Source of the DNA: a virus
Reading direction: 5' to 3' (one strand)
Length of the DNA: 53,997 nt
IMG/VR virus record: IMGVR_UViG_3300033153_006956
Span: 1 to 53,997 of that record
Of this stretch, positions 1,865 to 53,997 are shown piece by piece; the stretch's first letter is position 1; every line of letters begins with the position of its first letter. The notes under the pieces were generated by a model. That model ran no database searches. It worked only from the letters and a program-made list of their open reading frames with translations, and was not told where the DNA came from. The translations under genes were made by a program, and so were the position numbers.

Positions 1865-2004
1865 AATACTCTCCTTTTCAGTTTTCTTTTTACCTTCGAT
1901 TTTCTTTTTGTTTTTTTTTTATGCCCCCATATCCCTTTCAAAAGAGGGCTGAGTGCCCCTGACACGACACCCAGCCACACACGAGATGAAGGAGATGAGT
2001 TCAT
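1861..2004 (-). CDS. Small basic protein, 47 aa
   Basis: A 47-codon frame starts MNSSPSSRVWLGVVSG and ends in a run of Lys/Arg (KKKTKRKSKVKRKLKRR). Its ATG overlaps the stop of the E1-like gene and its stop overlaps the DUF6948 start, both as ATGA. That double coupling is the main reason to call it. The N-terminal half is short and hydrophobic and the C-terminal half strongly basic, suggesting nucleic-acid or membrane-surface binding. No family recognised. Confidence 0.6.
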   Translation of the reverse strand: MNSSPSSRVWLGVVSGALSPLLKGIWGHKKKTKRKSKVKRKLKRRVL

Positions 2005-2759
2005 TTTGGCCTCGTTTCTTCCAGACCTAGTGGTATAGTTGACATTCTTTGAGTCTCGAATATAAAATCTCTCACTAATGGTATTTCATTGAGCCAGTTC
2101 GCCAATTGAGATACCATTAGACCTGCTGCAATACAGGCCCCATACATCGTCATTCTATCCGTACAACTGCCGTCAAATGCCTCTGTATCACTAAACAATG
2201 TTTGGCGATAGTAGTCTCTTGCGGCCCCGTCCGCCAGTGGAATAGTGATTATCCTCATCACTCTGGTCGTCATTCGGGCATCAATCCACAACCCCTGCAA
2301 ATTCTCTTTCGGGTATAATGGTGTTGTCGGAAAGGCTGTTTTGGTCTTTGCCTCCATTGTCACCTTCTGCCATATCGCTTCCCTTGCCTGCATCTTGTCA
2401 ACACAGCAGAAAAATACATCCGTAGCTAGAAGGTATTTAGGAAGCACCTTTTCAAATTCCCAGAAGAAACCACTAAAAGTGGTGTCCTGGGTGGTCAACT
2501 GGTGTTCAAGGATATGGGCTTTGTGGTGTCTAATATCCCCCCTATCCCACCCTTGAGTCCCTACATTCTTCAGCTCCACCTTGTCGGGGTCAGCTCCATA
2601 CAGCTTCTTGTGCCCCATTGCCGCCAGAAGAATAGCGACTTGCCGACCAACTGCCCCAAGACCAGCTATGCCGATTGTTAATCCCCGATACTTTTGCAGG
2701 GGTAAAGAATCCTTAAACCGCAAATCTGCTGTCTCTTTTTGTTTCTTATTTTGTGTCAT
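2001..2759 (-). CDS. E1-like/ThiF-family ubiquitin-activating enzyme, 252 aa
   Basis: It should adenylate the C-terminus of the Ubl encoded at 5021-5266 and pass it to the E2. The Rossmann ATP-binding loop GLGAVG is at residues 33-38. The acidic strand ADPDKVELKNVGTQ (56-69) matches the E1 D-x-V-E-x-N-x-x-x-Q pattern, KA follows at 80-81, and the FFCCVDKMQAR strand is at 116-126. A conserved Cys (C199, GSCTDRM) before the C-terminal helix is the best candidate for thioester transfer. It is a single adenylation domain of ThiF/MoeB size. It is the last enzyme of the Ubl-E2-JAB-E1 cassette, about 70 bases after JAB, and overlaps the next gene by ATGA. Confident of the superfamily; the substrate is inferred from neighbours. 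Confidence 0.9.
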   Translation of the reverse strand: MTQNKKQKETADLRFKDSLPLQKYRGLTIGIAGLGAVGRQVAILLAAMGHKKLYGADPDKVELKNVGTQGWDRGDIRHHKAHILEHQLTTQDTTFSGFFWEFEKVLPKYLLATDVFFCCVDKMQAREAIWQKVTMEAKTKTAFPTTPLYPKENLQGLWIDARMTTRVMRIITIPLADGAARDYYRQTLFSDTEAFDGSCTDRMTMYGACIAAGLMVSQLANWLNEIPLVRDFIFETQRMSTIPLGLEETRPK

Positions 2760-2827
2760 TTTTCATCTCCTCATTCAAGTATCATTATCTCATTTGGTTT
2801 AAGCATAGATTCCCCTTAGAATTTTAC

Positions 2828-3853
2828 TCATTCCCACCCATATTTTAGCATTTCTAGTTCCTCGTCAGTATATTCCTCATCAAACCGGCTGTTCTTTAGT
2901 CCCATACTGGCGAGGCTGGCCTCCCTGTTGGTGTCTTTATTTGTTACCTGAAATATCTTACTTTTGTTACCTTGTTTGTTTTTATTCTTTCTGGTGTTGC
3001 CTTTTCTTCCGCTGTTTTTCTTCCCAGTAACTCTCACCTCTGCCGCACGGAGGGTAAGTGGGTCAAAGTCCTCGACAATCCGTCCCCATCTCAATATTTC
3101 CACCGGAGTGTAACCTTTCGTTCTGGCGATATTGTATTCTGTCAGTGTCAAGATGGTAGATGACCTTATCCATTCGCTTATTATATATTGTTTTATCCCC
3201 TGTTGGCCAGCAGATTGAACGAGTCTTTTCCGGTAAGACTCGCCACTACGGGGGTTTTGGCGGAATCCTATTTGTCTCCCCTCCATTACAGTAGGCGATT
3301 GTAGAGCTGGTGCGGGTCGTTTGATATTTTTTTTGTATTCTTTGTTCCACTCACTACTTTTTGCGTCCCAAATAGAGGACGTCCAGTCTACATACAGAGT
3401 CAAGGGCACGGCGGCGTGCATTTCTATTCCTGGTATCTTCAAGGCTGCATGGAGTTCAGCAAAATGTTCTTCGCCACCCCCAAGTATTATCATTATGGCA
3501 TAGTCCGTTCCCCTCAAAAGTTTATCTTCAAGAGTCGAAATATCTACAGAGCTGGGAGATGGTTTCCCAGCAGAAAATGGATGAGTGTGAATCCATACCC
3601 GCATACAGTTGGATGGGTCAACCCCCCGCCTGGCGTTCCTCTCCACATGTTTTGCCAGTGCCATATCTTCTAACTCTGTAGTTGCAGAGGTATTCTCTTG
3701 ACTAACGGTTTGGAAGTCAATAACAGTTAGCGGATTCTCTTTCTCGGTTATCCCAAATCCGCTAATCTCTAAATTACCGGCTTTCTTCATAAACCATCGT
3801 ATTTTGGCCCATGCTGTTGGTGAAATTGTGAGTCTTTTGTTTTCTTTTTTCAT
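2828..3853 (-). CDS. JAB/JAMM metalloprotease (deubiquitinase-like), 341 aa
   Basis: The zinc isopeptidase motif is complete: E29 in NLEISGFG, H89-T-H91-P in WIHTHPFSAGKP, then S101-x2-D104 (HxH-x9-SxxD). This catalytic core occupies about residues 1-150. A second helical region (180-260) and a Lys/Arg/Asn-rich linker (about 270-310) precede an acidic C-terminus. JAB enzymes in such operons mature the Ubl by C-terminal trimming or remove it from targets. The start overlaps the E2 stop (ATGA), so the two are co-translated. It is longer than stand-alone bacterial JAB domains (about 120-160 aa); the extension is unassigned. Confidence 0.92.
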   Translation of the reverse strand: MKKENKRLTISPTAWAKIRWFMKKAGNLEISGFGITEKENPLTVIDFQTVSQENTSATTELEDMALAKHVERNARRGVDPSNCMRVWIHTHPFSAGKPSPSSVDISTLEDKLLRGTDYAIMIILGGGEEHFAELHAALKIPGIEMHAAVPLTLYVDWTSSIWDAKSSEWNKEYKKNIKRPAPALQSPTVMEGRQIGFRQNPRSGESYRKRLVQSAGQQGIKQYIISEWIRSSTILTLTEYNIARTKGYTPVEILRWGRIVEDFDPLTLRAAEVRVTGKKNSGRKGNTRKNKNKQGNKSKIFQVTNKDTNREASLASMGLKNSRFDEEYTDEELEMLKYGWE

Positions 3854-4929
3854 TGGTCTTTCCTTTCATTTTTGGTATCCTTCATATCTTTCATATTCTC
3901 CACGTTCTCCACGTTCTCCACGTTCTCCATGCAGCGTGGACATTTATCCAGACAGTTAATGCAAAGTGTGCTTCCGCACTCAGAACATGCGGCAGAGTGC
4001 TCTTGACAAATTTGTCTCCCACAGGAACTACATGTTTTCTGGGAGTAAGAACAAAGAGAGCAAAGAACTCGTGCCTTTTTTTTCGTCTCCGCACAAATAT
4101 AACAGTGCATGGTAGTCCTCTTAGGGGCACATTTCTTACAGTATGTAGTACCACATGTATCACAAGCAACTATTTCCTCCCGTGGAACCCATCTCCTACA
4201 GTGCCCCTCGGAGCACCAACCGCCTTGTTGGTCAGTGAACGTCACCAGGGGGGAATAGGCTCCTCTCGCACTGTAATTTTTCAGTATAATAACGAATGTG
4301 TTATAGGCGGTAATAATATCCCAGTTCACGGTAGCATGAGCCATAAGCTGGGCTGATTGTCCCATACACAGGTTCCCCATAGAGGCGTGGGGATGGAGTC
4401 TACCGGAACTTCCCTTGTGTGGCACATCTGTTGCTTTCAACCTGAAATTTAGTCGGCCCCCCTCTTGTCTTTCCCCCATAACATGTACTACAAAATGGTT
4501 AAACGGCACTTTCAATCCTCTATGGGACAAGATTATAGTCGGCTGTGGGATATCAAGAGAAAACCACGAGTGAGCCGGATTATCAGAAAATTCCAATACC
4601 CATCCATCCGGTAAACTATTGAAAAATCCATCCAGGTTTCTTTTAGATAGATACCCCTTAAAGTGGTCTCCCACGACCATAGCTGCTCTTATCGCTAGAC
4701 GGTGGGCATCAACTAACTTATGGGCTGCCGATTCTAGCGCGGAGGCCATGCCAATCCAACTTTCACAACTTCTCGCTTCCGCGACTCCCTCTCTGATTAT
4801 CCTCAAACCTCGTCTCCTCGGGAGTGTACTGAGCTGTCGTATTTTAGCCCGAAATGCTTTCCCCGCCAGTTCTGGACTATGTTCACTGGTGAAGACAGTT
4901 TTTGTTTTCTCTTTTGTTCCCTTTACCAT
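3850..4929 (-). CDS. E2-like ubiquitin-conjugating protein fused to Cys-rich zinc-finger tail, 359 aa
   Basis: The ATG at 4929 is chosen because TTGGAG precedes it at good spacing. An upstream in-frame GTG (5001) has no Shine-Dalgarno and would translate through the hairpin. Numbered from that GTG, the protein has a helical N-terminus (45-130) and an E2/UBC-like core (130-245). The core carries the signature HPH-x6-C (H203, H205, candidate catalytic C212 in GNLCMG). About 19 cysteines follow at 263-357, mostly as CxxC pairs, as in RING, B-box or other treble-clef domains. The tail ends in ENV/KDM micro-repeats from a 9-bp tandem repeat. A single chain could hold E2 and E3-like functions. The fold of the tail needs structure prediction. 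Confidence 0.85.
   Translation of the reverse strand: MVKGTKEKTKTVFTSEHSPELAGKAFRAKIRQLSTLPRRRGLRIIREGVAEARSCESWIGMASALESAAHKLVDAHRLAIRAAMVVGDHFKGYLSKRNLDGFFNSLPDGWVLEFSDNPAHSWFSLDIPQPTIILSHRGLKVPFNHFVVHVMGERQEGGRLNFRLKATDVPHKGSSGRLHPHASMGNLCMGQSAQLMAHATVNWDIITAYNTFVIILKNYSARGAYSPLVTFTDQQGGWCSEGHCRRWVPREEIVACDTCGTTYCKKCAPKRTTMHCYICAETKKKARVLCSLCSYSQKTCSSCGRQICQEHSAACSECGSTLCINCLDKCPRCMENVENVENVENMKDMKDTKNERKDQ
3901..3930. repeat. 9-bp tandem repeat in the 3' end of the E2 gene
   Basis: Three to four copies of a CACGTTCTC-type 9-mer encode the repeated Glu-Asn-Val in the last residues of the E2-like protein. Similar short in-frame repeats occur near the 3' ends of other genes here, for example 51701-51727. 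Confidence 0.8.
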
Positions 4930-4947
4930 TTTATCATCTCCAAAAAA

Positions 4948-4999
4948 GCTGGGGTTATTCACCTTTATGGGTCCTTTATGGTTTTGGAATAACCCCAGC
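4948..4999 (-). terminator. Hairpin plus T-run between Ubl and E2 genes (attenuator-like)
   Basis: A 13-bp perfect inverted repeat (GCTGGGGTTATTC and its complement, 4987-4999 with 4948-4960) encloses a 26-base loop holding two CCTTTATGG copies. On the minus strand the second arm is followed at once by TTTTTTGG. This is the form of an intrinsic terminator whose T-run overlaps the E2 Shine-Dalgarno (TTGGAG). Partial termination would give more Ubl than enzyme; the stem could also mask or expose the ribosome site. Confidence 0.75.
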
Positions 5000-5020
5000 A
5001 CCCAAGATTGATTACAGGAG

Positions 5021-5266
5021 CTATACTTCCTTTGCTCCCTTCATATTGCTGGGGACGATAATGACAAAGTCCCCATCCTTAAGTACGCATTTTGAAGGCT
5101 CGGGGACAGGCTCACCGTTGACAACAACCGACAAGTTCTTGGGGTTTTGAATCCCCAGTTCGCCGTAGAGAGCTTCCTGTGCTGTCATTCCCTTTGCAAT
5201 CTGGACTACCCTAGTTGACCCCGTGCCTTTATTACTGACCAGTGTGATTTTACCGTTCATACCCAT
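5021..5266 (-). CDS. Ubiquitin-like beta-grasp protein (ThiS/MoaD/Ub fold), 81 aa
   Basis: The pattern fits a beta-grasp modifier. Strand KITLVSNKG is followed by strand TRVVQIAKG and the helix TAQEALYGELGI. Strand LSVVVNGEPVPE comes next, then VLKDGDFVIIVP, where LKDGD is the typical ThiS/MoaD/Ubl turn. The C-terminus is PSNMKGAKEV: no terminal GG, but one Gly four residues before the end, so trimming by the neighbouring JAB could expose it. AAAGGA precedes the ATG at good spacing. It is the first Ubl-cassette gene, upstream of E2, JAB and E1. Confident of the fold class; the conjugation role is inferred from the operon. Confidence 0.85.
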   Translation of the reverse strand: MGMNGKITLVSNKGTGSTRVVQIAKGMTAQEALYGELGIQNPKNLSVVVNGEPVPEPSKCVLKDGDFVIIVPSNMKGAKEV

Positions 5267-5975: not shown

Positions 5976-6339
5976 TTTTGAACTCCGGCGGTAAAATTAC
6001 ATTCGATGGGCAATCCGTGAACATTTTCCCTATTTTGCAGGGGGAAATTCCAGCTAACCCTGTCCCAATCGGTGTTACTAGAAATACCAACTCTGGGCGT
6101 GCTCGTGCGTAGGACAAAAAAGATTTCACATACTCGTGGATAACACAGAGAGGTAAAGTCTTTAAGTTTTTATCTTTTGTAGGGATAGCGAAGGACTGAC
6201 CTTGTAACCCATACCCCTGTCCATACACAGCCCCAAACTCTTCTGCCGCCTGCTTTGCCGCACCCGCACCGTGTCTACCCGCCTCATTCGACCCAAACAC
6301 AAAAATCTCGTTATCTTTTAGCTCTGTGATAAATTCCAT
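5965..6339 (-). CDS. Macro-domain-like phage protein, 124 aa
   Basis: The start at 6339 overlaps the stop of the upstream methyltransferase (TAATG). The N-terminus reads EIFVFGSNEAGRHGAGAA, and FLVTPIGTGLAGI appears near residue 95. These Gly-rich loops resemble macro-type ADP-ribose or nucleotide-binding proteins found in phages. A binding role for ADP-ribose-like ligands is possible, for example countering ADP-ribosylation defences, but substrate residues cannot be verified by eye. Length is normal for a stand-alone macro-like domain. Confidence 0.7.
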   Translation of the reverse strand: MEFITELKDNEIFVFGSNEAGRHGAGAAKQAAEEFGAVYGQGYGLQGQSFAIPTKDKNLKTLPLCVIHEYVKSFLSYARARPELVFLVTPIGTGLAGISPCKIGKMFTDCPSNVILPPEFKNGI

Positions 6340-6818
6340 TATTCTACTTTTTGCTCCACTAAACATATTGTATCGTTGTGGTCTCCACCGTGACAAACCA
6401 GACAAACCGCTATCTTCTCGAACCCTCTACTCTTCGACATCCCCACGCTATCATACCCCAAACTGATAACCCTTGCCCTGTCATTCAGTATTCCTGGCAA
6501 AGCATTTTTAATTTTAGTGAGGTGTCCAATATACTTGCCGTTATACTTTTCTCTCGACTTGCGGATGTTGTATGGTGGGTCAAGAATCACGGTATCAAAT
6601 TGCAGGGGGGTGGTAGTAACAAACTCGAACGCATCACTGCACACATCGGGTCGGAACTCATTGGACAAATCAACCCTGAACTCATTTACACCAAGTCTGA
6701 CTTTACCCGCAAATAAATTGAGAGTCTTGCCCACGCACCAATGCTCAACCCACGTTTTGAGTTTCGGCTGCTCAAAAGTCCATCGTTTAGGGGGTTGTTG
6801 TAGATATGTTATTTCCAT
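6339..6818 (-). CDS. DNA methyltransferase-like protein with DPPY motif, 159 aa
   Basis: The AdoMet-site strand LNLFAGKVRLG is followed by the acidic RVDLSNEFRPDV. The catalytic motif FDTVILDPPYNIRKS is near residues 93-107, as in N6-adenine or N4-cytosine methyltransferases. No target recognition domain is obvious, so it is a compact enzyme. It could protect phage DNA from restriction or modify nucleic acid otherwise. The start lies inside the end of the 47-aa gene (32-base overlap) and the stop overlaps the macro-like gene start. Confident of the fold, not of the base modified. Confidence 0.8.
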   Translation of the reverse strand: MEITYLQQPPKRWTFEQPKLKTWVEHWCVGKTLNLFAGKVRLGVNEFRVDLSNEFRPDVCSDAFEFVTTTPLQFDTVILDPPYNIRKSREKYNGKYIGHLTKIKNALPGILNDRARVISLGYDSVGMSKSRGFEKIAVCLVCHGGDHNDTICLVEQKVE

Positions 6819-6930
6819 TTTTCTTTCCTTTCAATTTTTTTCGCCTCTTTTTAGAGAAGACTCTGTCGTAGTTTCGTCCATACTCTTCATGACTTACGAA
6901 GCAGGGTCGTCTGCGGCTTCCCTTACTCAT
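6787..6930 (-). CDS. Small basic phage protein, 47 aa
   Basis: MSKGSRRRPCFVSHEEYGRN starts a 47-codon frame. MSKGS-x-x-RP followed by an E-x-x-x-N-x-D-x-x-F segment is a recurring short phage protein pattern known to me, function unknown. The ATG overlaps the stop of the membrane protein gene (TAATG) and the frame overlaps the methyltransferase start by 32 bases, which supports coupled translation. Confidence 0.6.
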   Translation of the reverse strand: MSKGSRRRPCFVSHEEYGRNYDRVFSKKRRKKLKGKKNGNNISTTTP

Positions 6931-7155: not shown

Positions 7156-7707
7156 CTATCCTCCTTTCAGTAATTCCACATCACTTTCAACTTCGTCCCC
7201 CCATACATCCCAACCCTTTGTCTTTTCTCTGGCAAATAACTCAATTCGGGGTAGGTCTCCAACAAGTCTAACAATTTCATCTCTAATTTGTGGTGGTTTG
7301 GCGGAGTGTCTGGTGCGTGGGAACATTTGTATTTGTTTAACAGATTTGCAAATTCGTTTTGGATGTCCCTTCTTGGCAAACAAACATAATTCTGCGTTCC
7401 CATTTGTCCAGTGCCCCATCCCAGAGTAGATTCCCTTTCCCAGCGGATTGAGTTTAACCCACGTAAAAGCACATGTCCTATACCAGAACCCCCAGGCTTT
7501 AATGACACTTAAAGCCTCCTGTAGCATTGGCATTGTAGCCCAGCAGAATAAGGCACAATCTTTGTCTACTAGCTGATTTATTGGTAACTGTTTGATTGCT
7601 TCAAGCGACATAGTGGGATATGTTATTCCACCTAACCTGGGCAAATTCCCTTTTTTATCGGAGTAGTTCCAGGGTGGGTCAGCATAGATTATTTGATATT
7701 TTTTCAT
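7156..7707 (-). CDS. MT-A70-family adenine methyltransferase, 183 aa
   Basis: The catalytic motif is YADPPWNY (residues 8-15), typical of MT-A70 N6-adenine methyltransferases. It is followed by GGITYPTMSLEAIKQLP and CALFCWATMPMLQEAL, both family features. AFTWVKLNP and the late RHSAKPPQIRDEI segment also match phage members. It would methylate adenine in DNA (or RNA), likely to evade restriction. The start overlaps the exonuclease stop (ATGA). Full-length for the family. Confidence 0.92.
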   Translation of the reverse strand: MKKYQIIYADPPWNYSDKKGNLPRLGGITYPTMSLEAIKQLPINQLVDKDCALFCWATMPMLQEALSVIKAWGFWYRTCAFTWVKLNPLGKGIYSGMGHWTNGNAELCLFAKKGHPKRICKSVKQIQMFPRTRHSAKPPQIRDEIVRLVGDLPRIELFAREKTKGWDVWGDEVESDVELLKGG

Positions 7708-8406: not shown

Positions 8407-8922
8407 TTAGCTCCTTATAAAATTTTTATTGTCCGGTTTACCCGACATAATAACTTTAATGCGATGCCAGGAGACAGGGTAATAATTGTTGTTATCCACA
8501 CCTATGTCATATTGTTTACTTTCCAGAGTAAGTTGCCCATGAGAATGACCAAAAAGTTGCCACGAATTATAATGACTACATTCCCATGTTCTCATCGCGT
8601 AATGGCACACAACTACTAAATTCCCATCAATTCGTTTACGCCAAATATATTTAGCACTTTTCGGTTGCCAGTGGTCGTGACTCCCAACAAGCAATATATG
8701 TGTCCCCTGCAATCGTCTGATATATTTTTTGTAAACATCTTCTTTCTTGTTAAGCCAGCAAAAGTCTCCAGCATGTATGGTTACATCTTGTGGTTGAACA
8801 ACACTATTAAAATTCCAGATAAGTTGTTCATCCATTTGCTCGACACTGGAAAAAGGCCTATTGCAATATTTAATTATTTTTTCATGCCCATAATGCTCAT
8901 CTGCTGTGAACCAATACATCAT
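8407..8922 (-). CDS. Calcineurin-like metallophosphoesterase, 171 aa
   Basis: The metal-binding motifs are complete: D-x-H in TADEHYGH, GDFCW, GSHDHW and GHSHG. They appear in the usual order for small bacterial and phage phosphoesterases. The start overlaps the upstream stop (ATGA), giving MMYWFTADEH. The substrate is unknown; small relatives act on phosphodiesters or nucleotides. It lies in a row of nucleotide and DNA metabolism genes. Confidence 0.92.
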   Translation of the reverse strand: MMYWFTADEHYGHEKIIKYCNRPFSSVEQMDEQLIWNFNSVVQPQDVTIHAGDFCWLNKKEDVYKKYIRRLQGTHILLVGSHDHWQPKSAKYIWRKRIDGNLVVVCHYAMRTWECSHYNSWQLFGHSHGQLTLESKQYDIGVDNNNYYPVSWHRIKVIMSGKPDNKNFIRS

Positions 8923-9350
8923 CTTATCCCTTTTTTCAACCACTTTTCAAATTCTCGGAGAGTTGAGAATATTTTCTGTGCGTGATATTGCAACCAGTAG
9001 TGTTGAGAGTGTCCGGTAGTACAAATTATGTAAACCGGTTTCTGGAAGAGACAACCATATACTATTTCCATAACAGTCCCGTATTTTTCATTACCGTCCA
9101 AGATAACTGCCACCCCCATCGAGTCCCTCATTGCTCTTAAATCCCGTACGACTATCTCAGCAGCATTTCCAGTATATAGTCTCCCATTTTCACATTTTCC
9201 ATCTTCTATTACATCTTCTCGTGCTTCCTTTGTGTCGTAGAATGGGTTATAAAATTCAACATTCAGTTTTTCCTCTATCCTTAACTCCCAGTTTCTCATA
9301 TATTGTCGTGAGGGGAAAGGGTGTGCGAGATACAGTTTAAGTTTTTCCAT
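8919..9350 (-). CDS. Nucleoside 2-deoxyribosyltransferase-like (DUF4406-type), 143 aa
   Basis: The N-terminus LYLAHPFPSRQYMRNWE and the YNPFYDT segment fit the nucleoside deoxyribosyltransferase-like fold. So do AAEIVVRDLRAMRDSMGVAV and YGTVMEIVYGCLFQKPVYII (a G-T-x-M-E active-site pattern). Enzymes of this fold cleave or exchange bases on nucleosides. With the adjacent dNTP-pool enzyme it suggests remodelling of nucleotide supply. The gene overlaps its upstream neighbour by 14 bases. Exact substrate unknown. Confidence 0.82.
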   Translation of the reverse strand: MEKLKLYLAHPFPSRQYMRNWELRIEEKLNVEFYNPFYDTKEAREDVIEDGKCENGRLYTGNAAEIVVRDLRAMRDSMGVAVILDGNEKYGTVMEIVYGCLFQKPVYIICTTGHSQHYWLQYHAQKIFSTLREFEKWLKKGIR

Positions 9351-40751: not shown

Positions 40752-42344
40752 TTAAGCCTCTGTCAACCCAGTAAGTTTGACCCCTCTCGGGTCTATAGGG
40801 GCTATCAACTGGTACTGCCAGAAGGGGGCCTCAAGAACATCCAACGCCTGCCCACTTGTTCCTCTAGCTACCATAAAGATGCCAGTATGCCCACCAACGG
40901 GGGCTAAGAACTGGATCTCACCATCCATGCCGGCACCTACATTCAACCGGTTATCACCGCTACTAATTGTTGGGGGAACATATCGTTTGATATTCCCACC
41001 CTGTAGTTTAATAGCATACAGACGATTCTTCAAGCACAGGGGGTCAACAACCCATCTGAGAACTCGACCGTTAAACTCATAATTCACCTCAGACCAACCA
41101 CCCCTAGCGTTCAAAGATTTACCCTGTCGGTCATAGAATTGGCGGTTGTTGTACAGGCCGTATTGCTGAAGGTGTTTCTGGGTAACGCCATTCGTAGTCA
41201 AAATAGTATCGACAGTCAGACCAGGATACGCATCCAGGTACTGGCCGACATACTTATTCAGCACATCCTCAGTCAACGGGCCATTAACTGCCGCCACCGA
41301 AGACTTGAACTGTGGGTAAAGAGCGAGACCAAGTGCCTCGGAACTTGCACTTCCGCCCATCAGATTCCCTGAACTTTTCATCCAGTCCTCAAGTCCCCAA
41401 GTAGACATCGGGCGAGTTCCACCTGTATACTGACTACAACCAGCATTTACTATGTAGTCATACTGAACGATAGCTTTACTGGCCGCAGCGGTCCAACCAT
41501 GTGTGGTATCGTAATCCTGGATTGAACCATCATCATCACCAATACCAACACAGTCAAATGTTCGACTGATATAATCCACCCTTTGAATCATCACATGAAT
41601 CTTGTTAGTCCCATCGGTATTGAGAATGTCTGTCCCATCCAGAGCTGTACCATCACAAAGTGTTCCGCCGGCTGTTCCATCACTATTATCCACAAAATCA
41701 ATCATCATACCAGGACGGAAATTATGGATAGTTCCATACCTTTCATCAATGGTAACCGTTACCACATTACTGGAATCACTAACACTTGTAACAGAGCCAA
41801 GAATTTTTGTCTCATAAGTTGAAGTGCCAGTAACAGACATTGAGTGGAAACTTGTTGCTTCTATCATCGCCCTTAGCTTACCAACTGCCTTGATGTCTCT
41901 CGCCACTGACTTAATTTGTGTGGCAGAGAGAGCGTCAGCCTGCATCCACGCGACTGGAACACTAAAGTTACCAGTATTGTAGTGGAGAGACAACTGACGT
42001 TTCAAACTACCGGCGTGTGCAGCTTCCAACGCATTTGGGAACGGTGTTGACGTTTCAGCCGTATAAAACTGCAACATCTGTGCTTGTTTACCAGTTGTAG
42101 TACCAGCTACCATTGCTGGGCCGAGAGGATCTCCATACTTCATAACACCGGAAATGCCAGCATCATAAATATGGATTACTTTCCAGTCTCTGCCGAGCAT
42201 GCTAGTCTCATCTCTCTTAACACCAACGGATGTGGCAATTATATCTTTGAAAAACGGAGCTACCAGTGGCAGGCTCTCGTGCATGACTTTGGGCAACTCT
42301 TCTCTCATAAAGTTAGAGAGATTTTCTATGGCCGTATCTCCCAT
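40752..42344 (-). CDS. Major capsid protein, 530 aa
   Basis: Its place after portal and scaffold and its domains fit a major head protein. MGDTAIENLSNFMREELPKV leads into a helix-rich N-arm. Central beta-rich regions (HVMIQRVDYISRTFDCVGIG) and a C-terminal GHTGIFMVARGTSGQALDVL block follow. The acidic/Gly-rich insert at 215-290 is probably a surface domain. An HK97-type fold is assumed. It is followed directly by the HNH remnant and beta-helix genes. Confidence 0.85.
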   Translation of the reverse strand: MGDTAIENLSNFMREELPKVMHESLPLVAPFFKDIIATSVGVKRDETSMLGRDWKVIHIYDAGISGVMKYGDPLGPAMVAGTTTGKQAQMLQFYTAETSTPFPNALEAAHAGSLKRQLSLHYNTGNFSVPVAWMQADALSATQIKSVARDIKAVGKLRAMIEATSFHSMSVTGTSTYETKILGSVTSVSDSSNVVTVTIDERYGTIHNFRPGMMIDFVDNSDGTAGGTLCDGTALDGTDILNTDGTNKIHVMIQRVDYISRTFDCVGIGDDDGSIQDYDTTHGWTAAASKAIVQYDYIVNAGCSQYTGGTRPMSTWGLEDWMKSSGNLMGGSASSEALGLALYPQFKSSVAAVNGPLTEDVLNKYVGQYLDAYPGLTVDTILTTNGVTQKHLQQYGLYNNRQFYDRQGKSLNARGGWSEVNYEFNGRVLRWVVDPLCLKNRLYAIKLQGGNIKRYVPPTISSGDNRLNVGAGMDGEIQFLAPVGGHTGIFMVARGTSGQALDVLEAPFWQYQLIAPIDPRGVKLTGLTEA

Positions 42345-46354: not shown

Positions 46355-49300
46355 TTACCTCGTTATAATATTAGGCTTATTTCTTGTTTTATATTTACCC
46401 TCATTTTGGGGGGAATAGAAATTAGCAAGAAGATTCCGCATTTCTTCAGCAGTTAAATCTGACGGATTGACTCCACTCAACAATGGCAGACCAGGGGCTA
46501 TTGGTTCACCAGATTTTATTTGTTGGGAGAGGGTTTTTTTTGCAGGGGCTTTGGCCGACTCACGCCCACGAGTATGAACAAGGAAGATGCTCATAGCAAC
46601 AGTATCAATAGCATCATCATATCGAAGAAGGGCTAGGTCTCTTGTAAAATTTTCAGTTTGTTCATAGAGGGCGGAGAAAGGCCACTCATTAACACGATGG
46701 TGTGGATACTTGATTTTACCGGCGTTGAATCTCCATTCCAAACCAGCAATGCGGTCACCCTTTGACATTCTGGCCGGATAGCGAATGGGGATAACGCGGG
46801 GAACCCAAATGCTAGATTCCCCCCCGCTAGCTCCTAGTTTTCTGGTAAACTCATTTACATACTCTCCCATTGAATCAACGAGATTCCCCTGTGTCCCACA
46901 GGCCTCAATACCGATAGCCCTCACCAGCCACTTTTGTCCCATCTCATATATTTTACGGTAGAAGACCGAATCTTTTACCTTGCCCAACCATAAGTCTAGT
47001 ACCCACAAACAGTTGTTGTGGTCAAAGCCGAGGATGGCTATGGAGCGATAATCGTTCTTTGCCTCAAGCCCACTGGCTGTATCCACTAGAGCCACCCTAT
47101 ACATAGACCCGAAAACTTTGTGGATTTGTCCCTGCTTTTTTTCTGTCTCGAAATCGGGAGCTTCTCCTGGATTACCCACACGTTTTCGTTCATTCCAGAA
47201 TACCTCTTTGGTGGAGGAAAGAAGATGAGCTTGCTCCTGTGGTTCCATCGTCCGATAGTCGGGGATGATGTATTCGTTGAAGTCTGGGTCAATTTGGAGA
47301 AGTTTGGTTTCGTCCGTGAGTGGGCGATTCAAATACTCACTGGAATACGCTGAAGTTCCAATCTCCATCTCCCGTGCACGCAAGAACTCAAGCGGCCAAG
47401 CTGCGTCCCAGAGAGCTTTGGTGCGGGTGGTGTCCTCAGCAACATAAACACGCCGCATCCATACCCCAAATCGAGGGTCATCACCCTCGCAGGCCCGATA
47501 CAGGAGACACCGGCGGTTTATCATAGTCCCAATCCAAAAAATTGCCGAGCCTTTGGCAAGCATTGGGATAATCTGTCGAAATAGAATCTGCTCATACTTC
47601 TCAGTGATAAGATATTGGGAATTAGAGGAACCACCAGTTGCCTCGGAGTCAAATTCAGGGTCGTCAAGTATAAAAAGTCGTGGCCGAGCACCACGTTTGC
47701 GGCCCATTACACTGAATCCCTCTATAACTGAACCATTCGCCAGATGGAGATGGTGGTGATTCCAGATGGCAGTTCCCCTTAGCGGTTTTATTACCCCGAA
47801 ATCAGCGGTTATTTGGGGATTCTCGGTAAGTTCTATCATCAATCTGTCAAACCGCCCCTCTATAAGGCGGTCTGTGGACATACCCATCGCAATACTGAAG
47901 TATGGGCGGGTGAGGGCCAACAGCAATGGGGCTTCCACACCTATCACAGTAGAGTTATGAACAAATATTCCCTCACAAAGAAAATTGGCGTTATCTTCCA
48001 CTTGAATATCATAAGCATCATCAGCTCCCCCATCTTCTATTGAGATAACTGGGTCCCAGTAAATATCCGATGTGGCGAGATTCATCAAGTCTTGACGGCC
48101 AGTTATTTCTGCAACTTTTTTTAGTTTTAGTCGGGTTATTCGATAATGATTATCAATTCGTATACCATATTTCTGCCGGAATTTCCACATCGAGAGAGGA
48201 AGTCTTTGTTTTTCTTCAAATGGAAAATAGATATTGTCAGTCGCATCGTGTCCAATTTCAATATTGTCAAGCAAAATCATTTTTCGCTTGATGCGAAAAC
48301 CTACCAAATCTCGAAACTTCAATCGTGCCTCTGCTGAAGAAATATGAAGTCCCCATGAATCAAACTCTTTATCATATTTAGAGTATTTCGCTTTCCTATA
48401 TGTATATCGGGAACGTATCCCCAACCTGAGAAGAGCCAGTTGTACATCTCGAATTAAATCTTTATTGGCCAGGGTAAGTGAGATTGACCCATTTTGTTTG
48501 CTGACTGTACCATCTGTATCAAAAAGGCCGCGAAGAAAAGCTGCAAGACATTCATCAGATGCTTCCCAAACAGCCTGTGGGATACGTTTTTCTGTTGATT
48601 TATGGCCAAATAATCCATGTTTTTTGATAAAATCTATTCCCCCATTGGTTATACTCCATCTTCCTTTTGCCTTGGTTTTACGTAACTGCCAATCTGGATG
48701 ATGCTTTACAGCCTTCAAGACAGTTTGAATAATCTCTTTATCGAATGTCGTAATCTGGCAACAACTGGTGGTGCTGCCGTCACCTGTTAATATCCCTAAC
48801 AACTCCGAGTCTAATATAGTCAATTTTCCTCTAGCCTGTGTGGGTAATGATGTTCGAGGAGTTGCGATTAAATCACCAATTTTTAAATCCCCCCCTGCTA
48901 TCCAAGTGTTATTAGTTAAGATACGGTGTTCTTTTGAGCAGAATACTCTATGGCCTTGTTTGGTTGTAATTTTGAGAAAAGATTTTTTACCAGAATACTC
49001 TACAGCTATTACTTTCTTCCAGGAAAGTTTAAGAGAAGAATCAAGGCTTAAAATCTTTTCTCCTTTTTTGATATTTTTTAATTTTTTGTATCCCGATAAA
49101 GTGGAGATTAAAGAGTCCCATCGCCCACATTTGGCGAAACCTCGTGGGGCAGCTTGTGCATTACGGCTCCACTGCCCCAAATCCCGTATGAGCTGGTAAT
49201 GAAAGTCAGGACTTTTCTTAAACCCGCTCTGATAGAAGGCTTCTCCTCTTGGGCGGAGATAGAGATTACGGAATAACACCCACGCATTTACCAAGTCTTC

Positions 49301-49408
49301 CGGAGTGTCCTGCTTGCGAAGTGTGGATAGACGGGCCTCCTTCTGCCCCTCTACAGTAAGAGTCGGATAATCCTCTGGAAGAGGATAATATGGATTGGTT
49401 TCGTTCAT
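46355..49408 (-). CDS. Terminase large subunit interrupted by an intein, 1017 aa precursor
   Basis: The exteins form a DNA-packaging ATPase/nuclease of about 625 aa. Walker A is APRGFAK|STVIG, split by the intein. Walker B LFILDDPE follows RKRGARPR, and nuclease Asp residues lie in VALVDTASGLEAKNDYRS and LRYDDAIDTVAMSI. The intein is residues 94-485. TerL should cut concatemers and drive DNA into the portal. The start is preceded by the broken zinc-ribbon frame; the 3' side is followed by HNH and portal genes. Without splicing the P-loop cannot form, so packaging depends on protein splicing. Confidence 0.92.
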   Translation of the reverse strand: MNETNPYYPLPEDYPTLTVEGQKEARLSTLRKQDTPEDLVNAWVLFRNLYLRPRGEAFYQSGFKKSPDFHYQLIRDLGQWSRNAQAAPRGFAKCGRWDSLISTLSGYKKLKNIKKGEKILSLDSSLKLSWKKVIAVEYSGKKSFLKITTKQGHRVFCSKEHRILTNNTWIAGGDLKIGDLIATPRTSLPTQARGKLTILDSELLGILTGDGSTTSCCQITTFDKEIIQTVLKAVKHHPDWQLRKTKAKGRWSITNGGIDFIKKHGLFGHKSTEKRIPQAVWEASDECLAAFLRGLFDTDGTVSKQNGSISLTLANKDLIRDVQLALLRLGIRSRYTYRKAKYSKYDKEFDSWGLHISSAEARLKFRDLVGFRIKRKMILLDNIEIGHDATDNIYFPFEEKQRLPLSMWKFRQKYGIRIDNHYRITRLKLKKVAEITGRQDLMNLATSDIYWDPVISIEDGGADDAYDIQVEDNANFLCEGIFVHNSTVIGVEAPLLLALTRPYFSIAMGMSTDRLIEGRFDRLMIELTENPQITADFGVIKPLRGTAIWNHHHLHLANGSVIEGFSVMGRKRGARPRLFILDDPEFDSEATGGSSNSQYLITEKYEQILFRQIIPMLAKGSAIFWIGTMINRRCLLYRACEGDDPRFGVWMRRVYVAEDTTRTKALWDAAWPLEFLRAREMEIGTSAYSSEYLNRPLTDETKLLQIDPDFNEYIIPDYRTMEPQEQAHLLSSTKEVFWNERKRVGNPGEAPDFETEKKQGQIHKVFGSMYRVALVDTASGLEAKNDYRSIAILGFDHNNCLWVLDLWLGKVKDSVFYRKIYEMGQKWLVRAIGIEACGTQGNLVDSMGEYVNEFTRKLGASGGESSIWVPRVIPIRYPARMSKGDRIAGLEWRFNAGKIKYPHHRVNEWPFSALYEQTENFTRDLALLRYDDAIDTVAMSIFLVHTRGRESAKAPAKKTLSQQIKSGEPIAPGLPLLSGVNPSDLTAEEMRNLLANFYSPQNEGKYKTRNKPNIITR
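47954..49129 (-). mobile_element. Intein with LAGLIDADG homing endonuclease in TerL
   Basis: It spans 392 residues from C94 (CGRWDSLIST) to the terminal H-N before Ser+1 (STVIG). Block B-like HRVFCSKEHRI and block F NFLCEGIFVHN are present. The homing domain has two LAGLIDADG-like motifs, LLGILTGDGST and FLRGLFDTDGTV, both with the acidic residue. All splicing residues (Cys1, His-Asn, Ser+1) are intact, so it is probably active. Insertion inside the P-loop GKS/T is a classic intein site. Confidence 0.92.
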
Positions 49409-51974: not shown

Positions 51975-52046
51975 GGTGACTGGTGTAACTCGAATCCACA
52001 CTCTCAGCATCACAGGCTGATGTGCTGCCATTACACTACAGCCATA
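51975..52046 (-). tRNA. tRNA-His (GTG)
   Basis: Cloverleaf by eye: acceptor ATGGCTG/CAGTCAC with an A-C first pair and C73, as expected for His. Anticodon stem TCAGC/GCTGA surrounds loop CTGTGAT, giving anticodon GTG. The T-loop is TTCGAGT. No encoded CCA, so host CCA addition is required. It lies two bases after tRNA-Ala. Confidence 0.85.
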
Positions 52047-52047
52047 A

Positions 52048-52120
52048 TGGAGATAGTAGGAGTCGAACCTACGACAAACTGCTTGCAAAACAGTTGCTCT
52101 CCCGACTGAGCTATATCCCC
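52048..52120 (-). tRNA. tRNA-Ala (TGC)
   Basis: GGGGATATAGCTCAG opens a standard cloverleaf. Acceptor GGGGATA pairs with TATCTCC (one G-T), the anticodon loop TTTGCAA gives TGC, and the T-arm is GTAGG-TTCGACT-CCTAC. Discriminator A, no encoded CCA. It is flanked closely by the other two tRNAs. Confidence 0.93.
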
Positions 52121-52123
52121 AAA

Positions 52124-52196
52124 TAGCGGGAGTGAGATTTGAACTCACGATTTCTGGCGTATGAGACCAGCGTCTTAACCACTCGACCATCCCGCA
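52124..52196 (-). tRNA. tRNA-Met/Ile-type (CAT)
   Basis: The anticodon loop CTCATAC gives CAT. Acceptor TGCGGGA/TCCCGCT pairs except the first position (T-T), an oddity that is initiator-like in place but not in bases. T-arm GTGAG-TTCAAAT-CTCAC. Discriminator A, no encoded CCA. The anticodon fits elongator Met, initiator Met or a lysidine-modified Ile; the sequence does not settle which. It is the first of the three tRNAs. Confidence 0.85.
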
Positions 52197-53556: not shown

Positions 53557-53772
53557 TCAATCGTCCTTACTACTGACGTCTAACATAAAAACGTCCCTAC
53601 AGCTGGTATCCTTTGCACTACCAAAACCGGAATATCCCCTTTGCTGGTTTTTCAAGATACTAGAGGATACTCTATATCCTTGTTGCCGCAATTCTTTTGC
53701 CCGTTTGTTTTTTGCTGCGATACATTCGGACCGTAGGTTATAATCGTCAGTATCGAAAAACTCTTGTTTCAT
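53557..53772 (-). CDS. Small phage protein, 71 aa (complete copy)
   Basis: MKQEFFDTDDYNLRSECIAA, then a basic helix KNKRAKELRQQGYRV and RGYSGFGSAKDTSC. The same protein begins at the left edge (1-117) with several substitutions, and its ATG overlaps the stop of the upstream gene in both copies (ATGA). Unknown function. Confidence 0.75.
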   Translation of the reverse strand: MKQEFFDTDDYNLRSECIAAKNKRAKELRQQGYRVSSSILKNQQRGYSGFGSAKDTSCRDVFMLDVSSKDD

Positions 53773-53997
53773 GATTGTATCCTTTTTGTTGTTTTTCTCT
53801 CGGGTTTTTGGCTTTCGACCTCAGCCAAAACCGCCAGGTAGAAGCATTTTTCAATCGGCAAATTATACTCTATTGATTGTCCGTTTAACCGTAAACCAAT
53901 CAGTTTAGGTTTTATGATTACTACAATCGGCCTATATTTGCCAACTTCAAACATTTCTGCTTCTGTTTCCCGTGTTACGTTTTCTTTGGTTCTTGTC
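53656..53997. repeat. Right copy of imperfect terminal direct repeat
   Basis: Pairs with 1-342 at about 95% identity without gaps and ends exactly at the window edge. On the minus strand it carries most of the 71-aa gene and the whole body of the 76-aa gene. Confidence 0.9.
53769..53997 (-). CDS. Partial small phage protein (copy of 114-344), start cut by window edge
   Basis: It reads TRTKENVTRETEAEMFEVGK from the edge; only the first two bases of the start codon are missing. The left-end copy (114-344) is complete. The C-terminal block EVESQKPERK differs from EKKRKKPERK in the left copy. The frame is otherwise conserved, as expected for two natural variants. Confidence 0.75.
   Translation of the reverse strand, partial: TRTKENVTRETEAEMFEVGKYRPIVVIIKPKLIGLRLNGQSIEYNLPIEKCFYLAVLAEVESQKPERKTTKRIQS

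Follow-up and report, generated by a model that had tools for sequence, protein, structure and literature searches.

Near the left end of the IMG/VR virus record IMGVR_UViG_3300033153_006956 (53,997 bases, analysed at full length and called the window here) lie four consecutive minus-strand genes, in the order Ubl, E2-like protein, JAB and E1, which probably constitute a self-contained phage pathway for conjugating a ubiquitin-like modifier (Ubl). The view of the first-pass annotation that the cassette is a Ubl conjugation and deconjugation set owned by the phage is well supported: terminase and DNA polymerase genes are present in the record, a sister phage (L070) carries the set at the same site, and the gene order recurs in about 40 further viral contigs. 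What is known of ubiquitin-like tagging in bacteria concerns mainly its use as an anti-phage weapon; here the pathway belongs to phages, among them cultured crAss-like gut phages whose E1 still bears the label 'thiamine biosynthesis protein'. Should the cassette be active, a very common group of human gut viruses would possess a post-translational modification system of its own.

The four adjacent open reading frames of the first-pass annotation were all recovered at the positions it had assigned, each on the minus strand. The Ubl gene (5021..5266) encodes an 81-aa ThiS/MoaD-like beta-grasp modifier. The E2-like gene (3850..4929) probably starts at the ATG at 4929, with GGAG upstream, giving 359 aa, rather than at the GTG at 5001, to which the frame remains open (383 aa; residues below are numbered from this GTG). 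The predicted JAMM (JAB/MPN+) metallopeptidase (2828..3853) has 341 aa, and the E1-like adenylating enzyme (2001..2759) is a single-domain protein of 252 aa. Three of the genes had been described as coupled closely or by ATGA; the ATGA overlap between the E2-like and JAB genes is present, but gaps of 91 nt (Ubl to E2) and 68 nt (JAB to E1) leave this as the one truly coupled junction. Other features of the window include an MT-A70-type methyltransferase gene (7156-7707), which shares the strand of the cassette and lies a short way upstream of it, tRNA genes for His, Ala and Met side by side (51975-52196), and a low-complexity repeat at 1085-1505, in which several frames are open and read as Gly/Tyr/Ser or Ala/Met/Val repeats, with stretches 72-78% similar in unrelated phage records. 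The large terminase (46355-49408) contains an intein (47954-49129, residues 94-485; Cys first, VHN|S last) within an apparent Walker A motif, which is lacking from the L070 terminase. The window ends (1-342 and 53656-53997) are 95% identical across 342 bases and so form an imperfect terminal repeat, which suggests that the genome is nearly complete or else that strains were mixed in the assembly.

At sequence level the homology of the E1-like enzyme is unambiguous, and its proposed identity as a ThiF/E1-like adenylating enzyme stands. Pfam ThiF matches it at 44.9 bits (1e-11; cut-off 28.1), and the phage E1 profile at 112 bits, compared with 6.8 bits for the best of 5000 shuffles. The protein displays the features of the ThiF/E1 superfamily, namely a Rossmann adenylation domain with GxGxxG, Asp, Asn and Lys residues and a catalytic Cys, and alignment shows that the nucleotide-binding/adenylation residues and the predicted catalytic Cys199 (codon 2163-2165) are conserved, the equivalent Cys being kept in all 46 E1 relatives. 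Its context, SCT, is the usual one for an E1 cysteine. In the PDB, the profile of phage E1s finds its strongest match in UBA5, a minimal E1 with a single Cys. In a phylogenetic tree the window and L070 enzymes pair with support of 100/97 and the phage E1s stand apart from those of PRTRC, the deeper branching order being unsure because of long branches.

The beta-grasp assignment of the Ubl holds as well, if by a small margin (Pfam ThiS 23.1 bits against a cut-off of 22.5; 31.7 bits for the L070 Ubl), and its best, weak PDB matches are SAMP2 and PF1061. Gly77 directly follows the last strand and precedes the tail AKEV, so that the protein presents a single Gly and no C-terminal GG; cleavage by JAB is predicted after this residue. 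Almost all phage Ubls have retained a Gly at this point, in most cases as part of (K/R/A)SG. Those with residues beyond it adjoin a JAB gene (KG-AKEV in the window, KG-A in L070, GG-I in L073, SG plus a domain in the crAss type), whereas the Ubl of Xanthomonas/Erwinia jumbo phages, a single phage group, ends exactly at GG and has no recognised JAB in its operon, a distribution that fits JAB as the maturation peptidase.

For JAB itself, previously called a complete JAMM peptidase, all metal-site residues are in place (E29, HTH89-91, S101, D104) and the L070 homologue is canonical (HTHPDGVTQPSGVD), although the window protein has no Pfam match and its loop, HxH-x9-S-x2-D, is two residues longer than the canonical HxH-x7-S-x2-D. 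A sequence search of the PDB matched the window protein to Rpn11-like JAMM proteins and to nothing else (E 0.025). At another locus (L036, 5588-7903) an insert interrupts the JAB gene exactly within the JAMM motif (GGIHTH | MNCFFSGTD) and bears, on the opposite strand, a homing-endonuclease-like ORF (6147-6929).

The E2-like protein contains HPHASMGNLCMG, followed by about 20 cysteines. The HPH-x6-C site (HPH203-205, C212) and the Cys-rich tail are as the first-pass annotation described them, but a UBC fold found no support. The proposed active site, HPHASMGNLC (4366..4395, minus strand), aligns with HPHVNTDGYLC of L070; HPH..G.LCxG is common to the E2-slot proteins of the window, L070 and the jumbo phage, HSH...C-x-G is nearly invariant in the E2 slot, and the proteins that occupy this slot in crAss-type and jumbo-phage operons have the motif in common with the window protein. 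No Pfam match above cut-off was obtained for the window protein, and neither it nor the crAss-type E2-slot proteins matched a UBC/E2 domain by Pfam, PDB profile search or Foldseek. The AlphaFold model of the window protein is poor (pLDDT 58) and constitutes weak evidence for that reason and because its input alignment presumes the motif match. The model of the crAss001 E2-slot protein is good (pLDDT 80); Foldseek retrieved no E2 for it from the PDB, and clear matches in BFVD were to uncharacterised viral proteins only. PaBG (BFVD rank 9) was considered as a possible carrier and has no annotated E1 or JAB in its first 50 kb. Since the window protein scored no better than shuffles against a profile of crAss-type E2 cores, we do not claim homology of the two on sequence. 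A PRTRC_B profile placed its best local match to the phage E2 on the Cys, at a non-significant score.

The tail of the E2-like protein (residues 263-357; 3931..4215, minus strand) has a RING/PHD/RBR-like zinc-ligand pattern, C4-[C/H]-C3, also seen in L070, with weak matches to the TRIM37 RING, AN1 and Prok-RING_1. RBR E3 ligases are among the top, non-significant Foldseek matches of the window model, which may reflect just the Cys pattern. The tail could possibly act as a built-in RING-like E3, and an E2 with such a zinc tail, if active, would bear on the origin of E3 ligases. Extended to a widespread phage-owned signalling pathway, on which crAss-like and other phages would draw during infection and in which the window, L070 and the Xanthomonas/Erwinia jumbo phages would fuse E2 with a RING/RBR-like E3 into a complete E1-E2-E3-Ubl set, joined in the window and L070 by a JAB deconjugase, this idea is speculative and we regard it as rather unlikely.

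The sister phage was found by a scan seeded with the E1s of the window and of a jumbo phage. L070, a 51.7-kb viral contig, has all four genes, their order and their place in the genome unchanged, and the genes adjoining the cassette are also common to both. Its Ubl ends in VNVKGA, and its E2-like protein has HPHVNTDGYLCLG and a Cys/His tail. Identities between window and L070 are 35% for E1 (4e-37), 31% for JAB (2e-36), 32% for Ubl (1e-8) and 26% for the E2-like protein over site and tail (2e-7), in contrast to the core proteins, where terminase reaches 54%, polymerase 47% and the protein encoded at 40752-42344 51%. With neighbours shared, the cassette has thus stayed put and its proteins have diverged faster than the core, a pattern that in two genomes is equally that of relaxed or of diversifying selection. 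Directly after E1, L070 has a second small ThiS-like beta-grasp ORF (8834-9043) without a terminal Gly, for which no window counterpart was noticed.

Beyond L070 the family was reached through E1. Single-protein scans of viral contigs with the window JAB, E1 or E2-like protein gave no match, nor did tblastn of JAB, the E2-like protein or Ubl against phage records, and tblastn of E1 retrieved Bacteroides crAss-like phages and Flavobacterium phages. An IMG/VR scan for E1 yielded 46 contigs, in which a script recognised a JAMM gene beside E1 in 43 and an HxH..C gene in 42, counts that are approximate as some contigs are incomplete and some duplicate. A search for the gene order, which the first-pass annotation had suggested, thus met with success: Ubl-E2-JAB-E1 recurs across Crassvirales, Flavobacterium phages and others, in the roughly 40 contigs mentioned above, including crAss001 (gp79-gp78-gp77-gp76, between primase and uracil-DNA glycosylase) and Flavobacterium phage FpV4. 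A pattern-limited search through 84,980 genomes of bacteria and archaea returned three small contigs only, indicating that the E1 clade is mainly viral. An Acinetobacter MD-2021a match was rejected on account of its bacterial MoeB context. The window JAB and Ubl gave no significant score against crAss-type profiles; by sequence, the window JAB, Ubl and E2-like protein are linked to L070 only, and L070 is tied to the crAss type via E1. We infer homology of these three proteins to their crAss-type counterparts from gene order and motifs, not from sequence scores.

In the Xanthomonas jumbo phage PhiXhv-15 (L067, 3757-7636) a Ubl ending in GG and an E1 accompany an 892-aa E2-like protein with HPH..GSLCLG and Cys-rich ends; no JAB was recognised. 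A further phage set (L076, 4324-8471) comprises a Ubl-like ORF ending in LVGGC, a JAB above the Pfam cut-off and an E1, with no E2 recognised. In the lineages examined the cassettes adjoin replication and DNA-metabolism genes, not virion genes. Of the roles that the first-pass annotation put forward as possible, namely tagging of virion parts, tagging of host defence proteins and protection of particles, this context makes the first slightly less likely, and it leans slightly towards an early role in the DNA-metabolism phase.

Between the Ubl and E2-like genes lies a terminator-like hairpin (4942..4999, minus strand), a 13-bp stem followed by TTTTTT, with an MFE of -28.4 and a z of -2.4 against dinucleotide shuffles. 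Of 29 related cassettes, 27 have a strong hairpin (z below -3) in the Ubl-E2 gap, a T run accompanying many of them; among other gaps of the same loci the figure is 21 of 90. This count is based on mononucleotide shuffles and related, non-independent loci, and some of the control gaps are duplicate Ubl-E2 gaps. L070 also has a Ubl-E2 hairpin, lacking the T run. The E2, JAB and E1 genes overlap or abut in related cassettes. With the hairpin placed after its gene, Ubl is probably made in excess, and leaky termination giving much Ubl and little enzyme is the probable function.

The four genes in their order, the conserved catalytic residues, the phage ownership and the position of the hairpin lead us to propose the following sequence of events. 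The hairpin would stop much of the transcript before the E2-like gene, leaving Ubl in excess, and JAB would trim the Ubl tail after Gly77. The single-domain E1 would then adenylate Gly77 and take Ubl as a thioester on Cys199, from which it would pass to Cys212 of the E2-like protein. The latter, with a putative E2 fold, would join Ubl to target proteins, its zinc-binding tail serving as built-in E3 or targeting module, and JAB would also take Ubl off the targets. These would most likely be proteins of the phage or the host that serve DNA replication/metabolism or host takeover, acted on early in infection.

Whether the protein in the E2 slot is an E2 at all bears on two competing explanations. 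It may be that E1 and JAB only process Ubl and attach it to a single dedicated partner (a virion or replication protein, or else the E2-slot protein), as the absence of fold support would allow and as might be read from a second conserved motif in the crAss-type family, ES-x2-G-x-P, for which we know of no E2 counterpart. We nevertheless think this improbable, since the HPH...G.LC.G found in the window, in L070 and in the jumbo phage closely resembles HPN...G.xC, the classical E2 site, and since the elements predicted along the chain (helix, strands, HxH, Cys, two helices) come in an order that fits an E2. The same negative fold searches would equally accommodate a sulfur-carrier system, in which Ubl, once adenylated and thiocarboxylated, hands on sulfur, for instance to a nucleotide or cofactor, with the E2-slot protein as acceptor enzyme. 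Ubl and E1 do belong to the ThiS and ThiF families, and JAB genes adjoin sulfur-transfer operons in bacteria (PMC1779556). Set against this are the transthiolation Cys of E1, the conserved His...Cys pair of the E2-slot protein, which resembles E2 sites, and the subset of window proteins that was scanned, which gave no match to a cysteine desulfurase, rhodanese, ThiG or MoaE; we hold a sulfur carrier to be quite improbable.

Defence or counter-defence concerns the target and purpose of the pathway and is compatible with conjugation chemistry. The cassette might tag proteins of competing phages or of host defence in a Bil-like manner, or JAB might strip Bil or CBASS conjugates off particles. Bacterial Bil and CBASS do use related parts against phages (PMC11354881, PMC10097602), and the faster divergence of the cassette relative to the core is as expected of conflict genes. 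However, the conserved order and the site among replication and DNA-metabolism genes in unrelated phages resemble a core function, and an anti-Bil peptidase needs less than a full E1-E2-Ubl set, leaving a defensive purpose conceivable and on the unlikely side. That the cassette is a captured bacterial PRTRC set in decay, as the PRTRC ThiF being the nearest bacterial E1 family found might imply, is mostly refuted and very improbable indeed: the window E1 reaches 32.1 bits with TIGR03736, far below the cut-off of 144.75, and falls in a separate clade, all active-site residues are intact, the gene order differs, and PRTRC ParB, E and F genes were not seen. Conjugation of Ubl by a phage-owned pathway remains our preferred reading.

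No report of a phage E1-E2-JAB-Ubl set was found in the literature searched, which mostly excluded subscription papers and preprints, and we do not present priority as proven. The nearest counterparts are crAss001 gp79-gp76 and the FpV4 cassette, annotated as hypothetical, metalloprotease and thiamine biosynthesis proteins. They share with the window a homologous E1, the order Ubl, HxH..C, JAMM, E1 and a hairpin after Ubl, but differ in the long C-terminal extension of their Ubl, an E2-slot protein without the Cys-rich tail and an extra conserved gene after E1. Among eukaryotic systems, UFM1-UBA5-UFC1 resembles the cassette in its single-domain E1, UBA5, and UFM1 also exposes a single Gly; UFC1, however, is a different E2, and UFM1 is matured by a Cys protease, not by a JAB.

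The tail assembly proteins I and K of lambda/T1 (Ubl plus JAB/NlpC) likewise pair a phage Ubl with a JAB, but are encoded among tail genes without E1 or E2; both such phage tail pairs and bacterial E1/E2/JAB/Ubl operons have been described (Iyer et al. 2006, PMC1779556). PRTRC, which we read as class 6d in the table of that paper, unites Ubl, E2-like protein, JAB and E1 on mobile elements. Apart from the profile score, the additional genes, the gene order and the separate E1 clade given above, it differs at the E2 site, where the His follows the Cys instead of preceding it, and in a Ubl ending in TKG or TKA, all of which place the window cassette outside PRTRC. Type II CBASS offers E1/E2-like transfer (Cap2) and a JAB (Cap3), but Cap2 is an E1-E2 fusion acting on a cGAS-like enzyme and there is no separate Ubl. 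In the window the E2-like protein is a separate gene, the PADLOC E1-E2 models match weakly and over the E1 half only, and no cGAS-like protein was recognised among the proteins scanned, so that by these features the cassette falls outside type II CBASS. BilABCD is likewise a four-part set of Ubl, E2, JAB and E1, whose JAB exposes the C-terminal Gly of Ubl. By its definition (PMC11354881), however, the window cassette falls outside Bil: BilA is a two-domain Ubl, BilD combines a Cys domain with two adenylation domains, and BilB has a CEHH site, whereas the window set, carried by a phage, combines a single-domain 81-aa Ubl, a single-domain 252-aa E1 and an HPH-C site.
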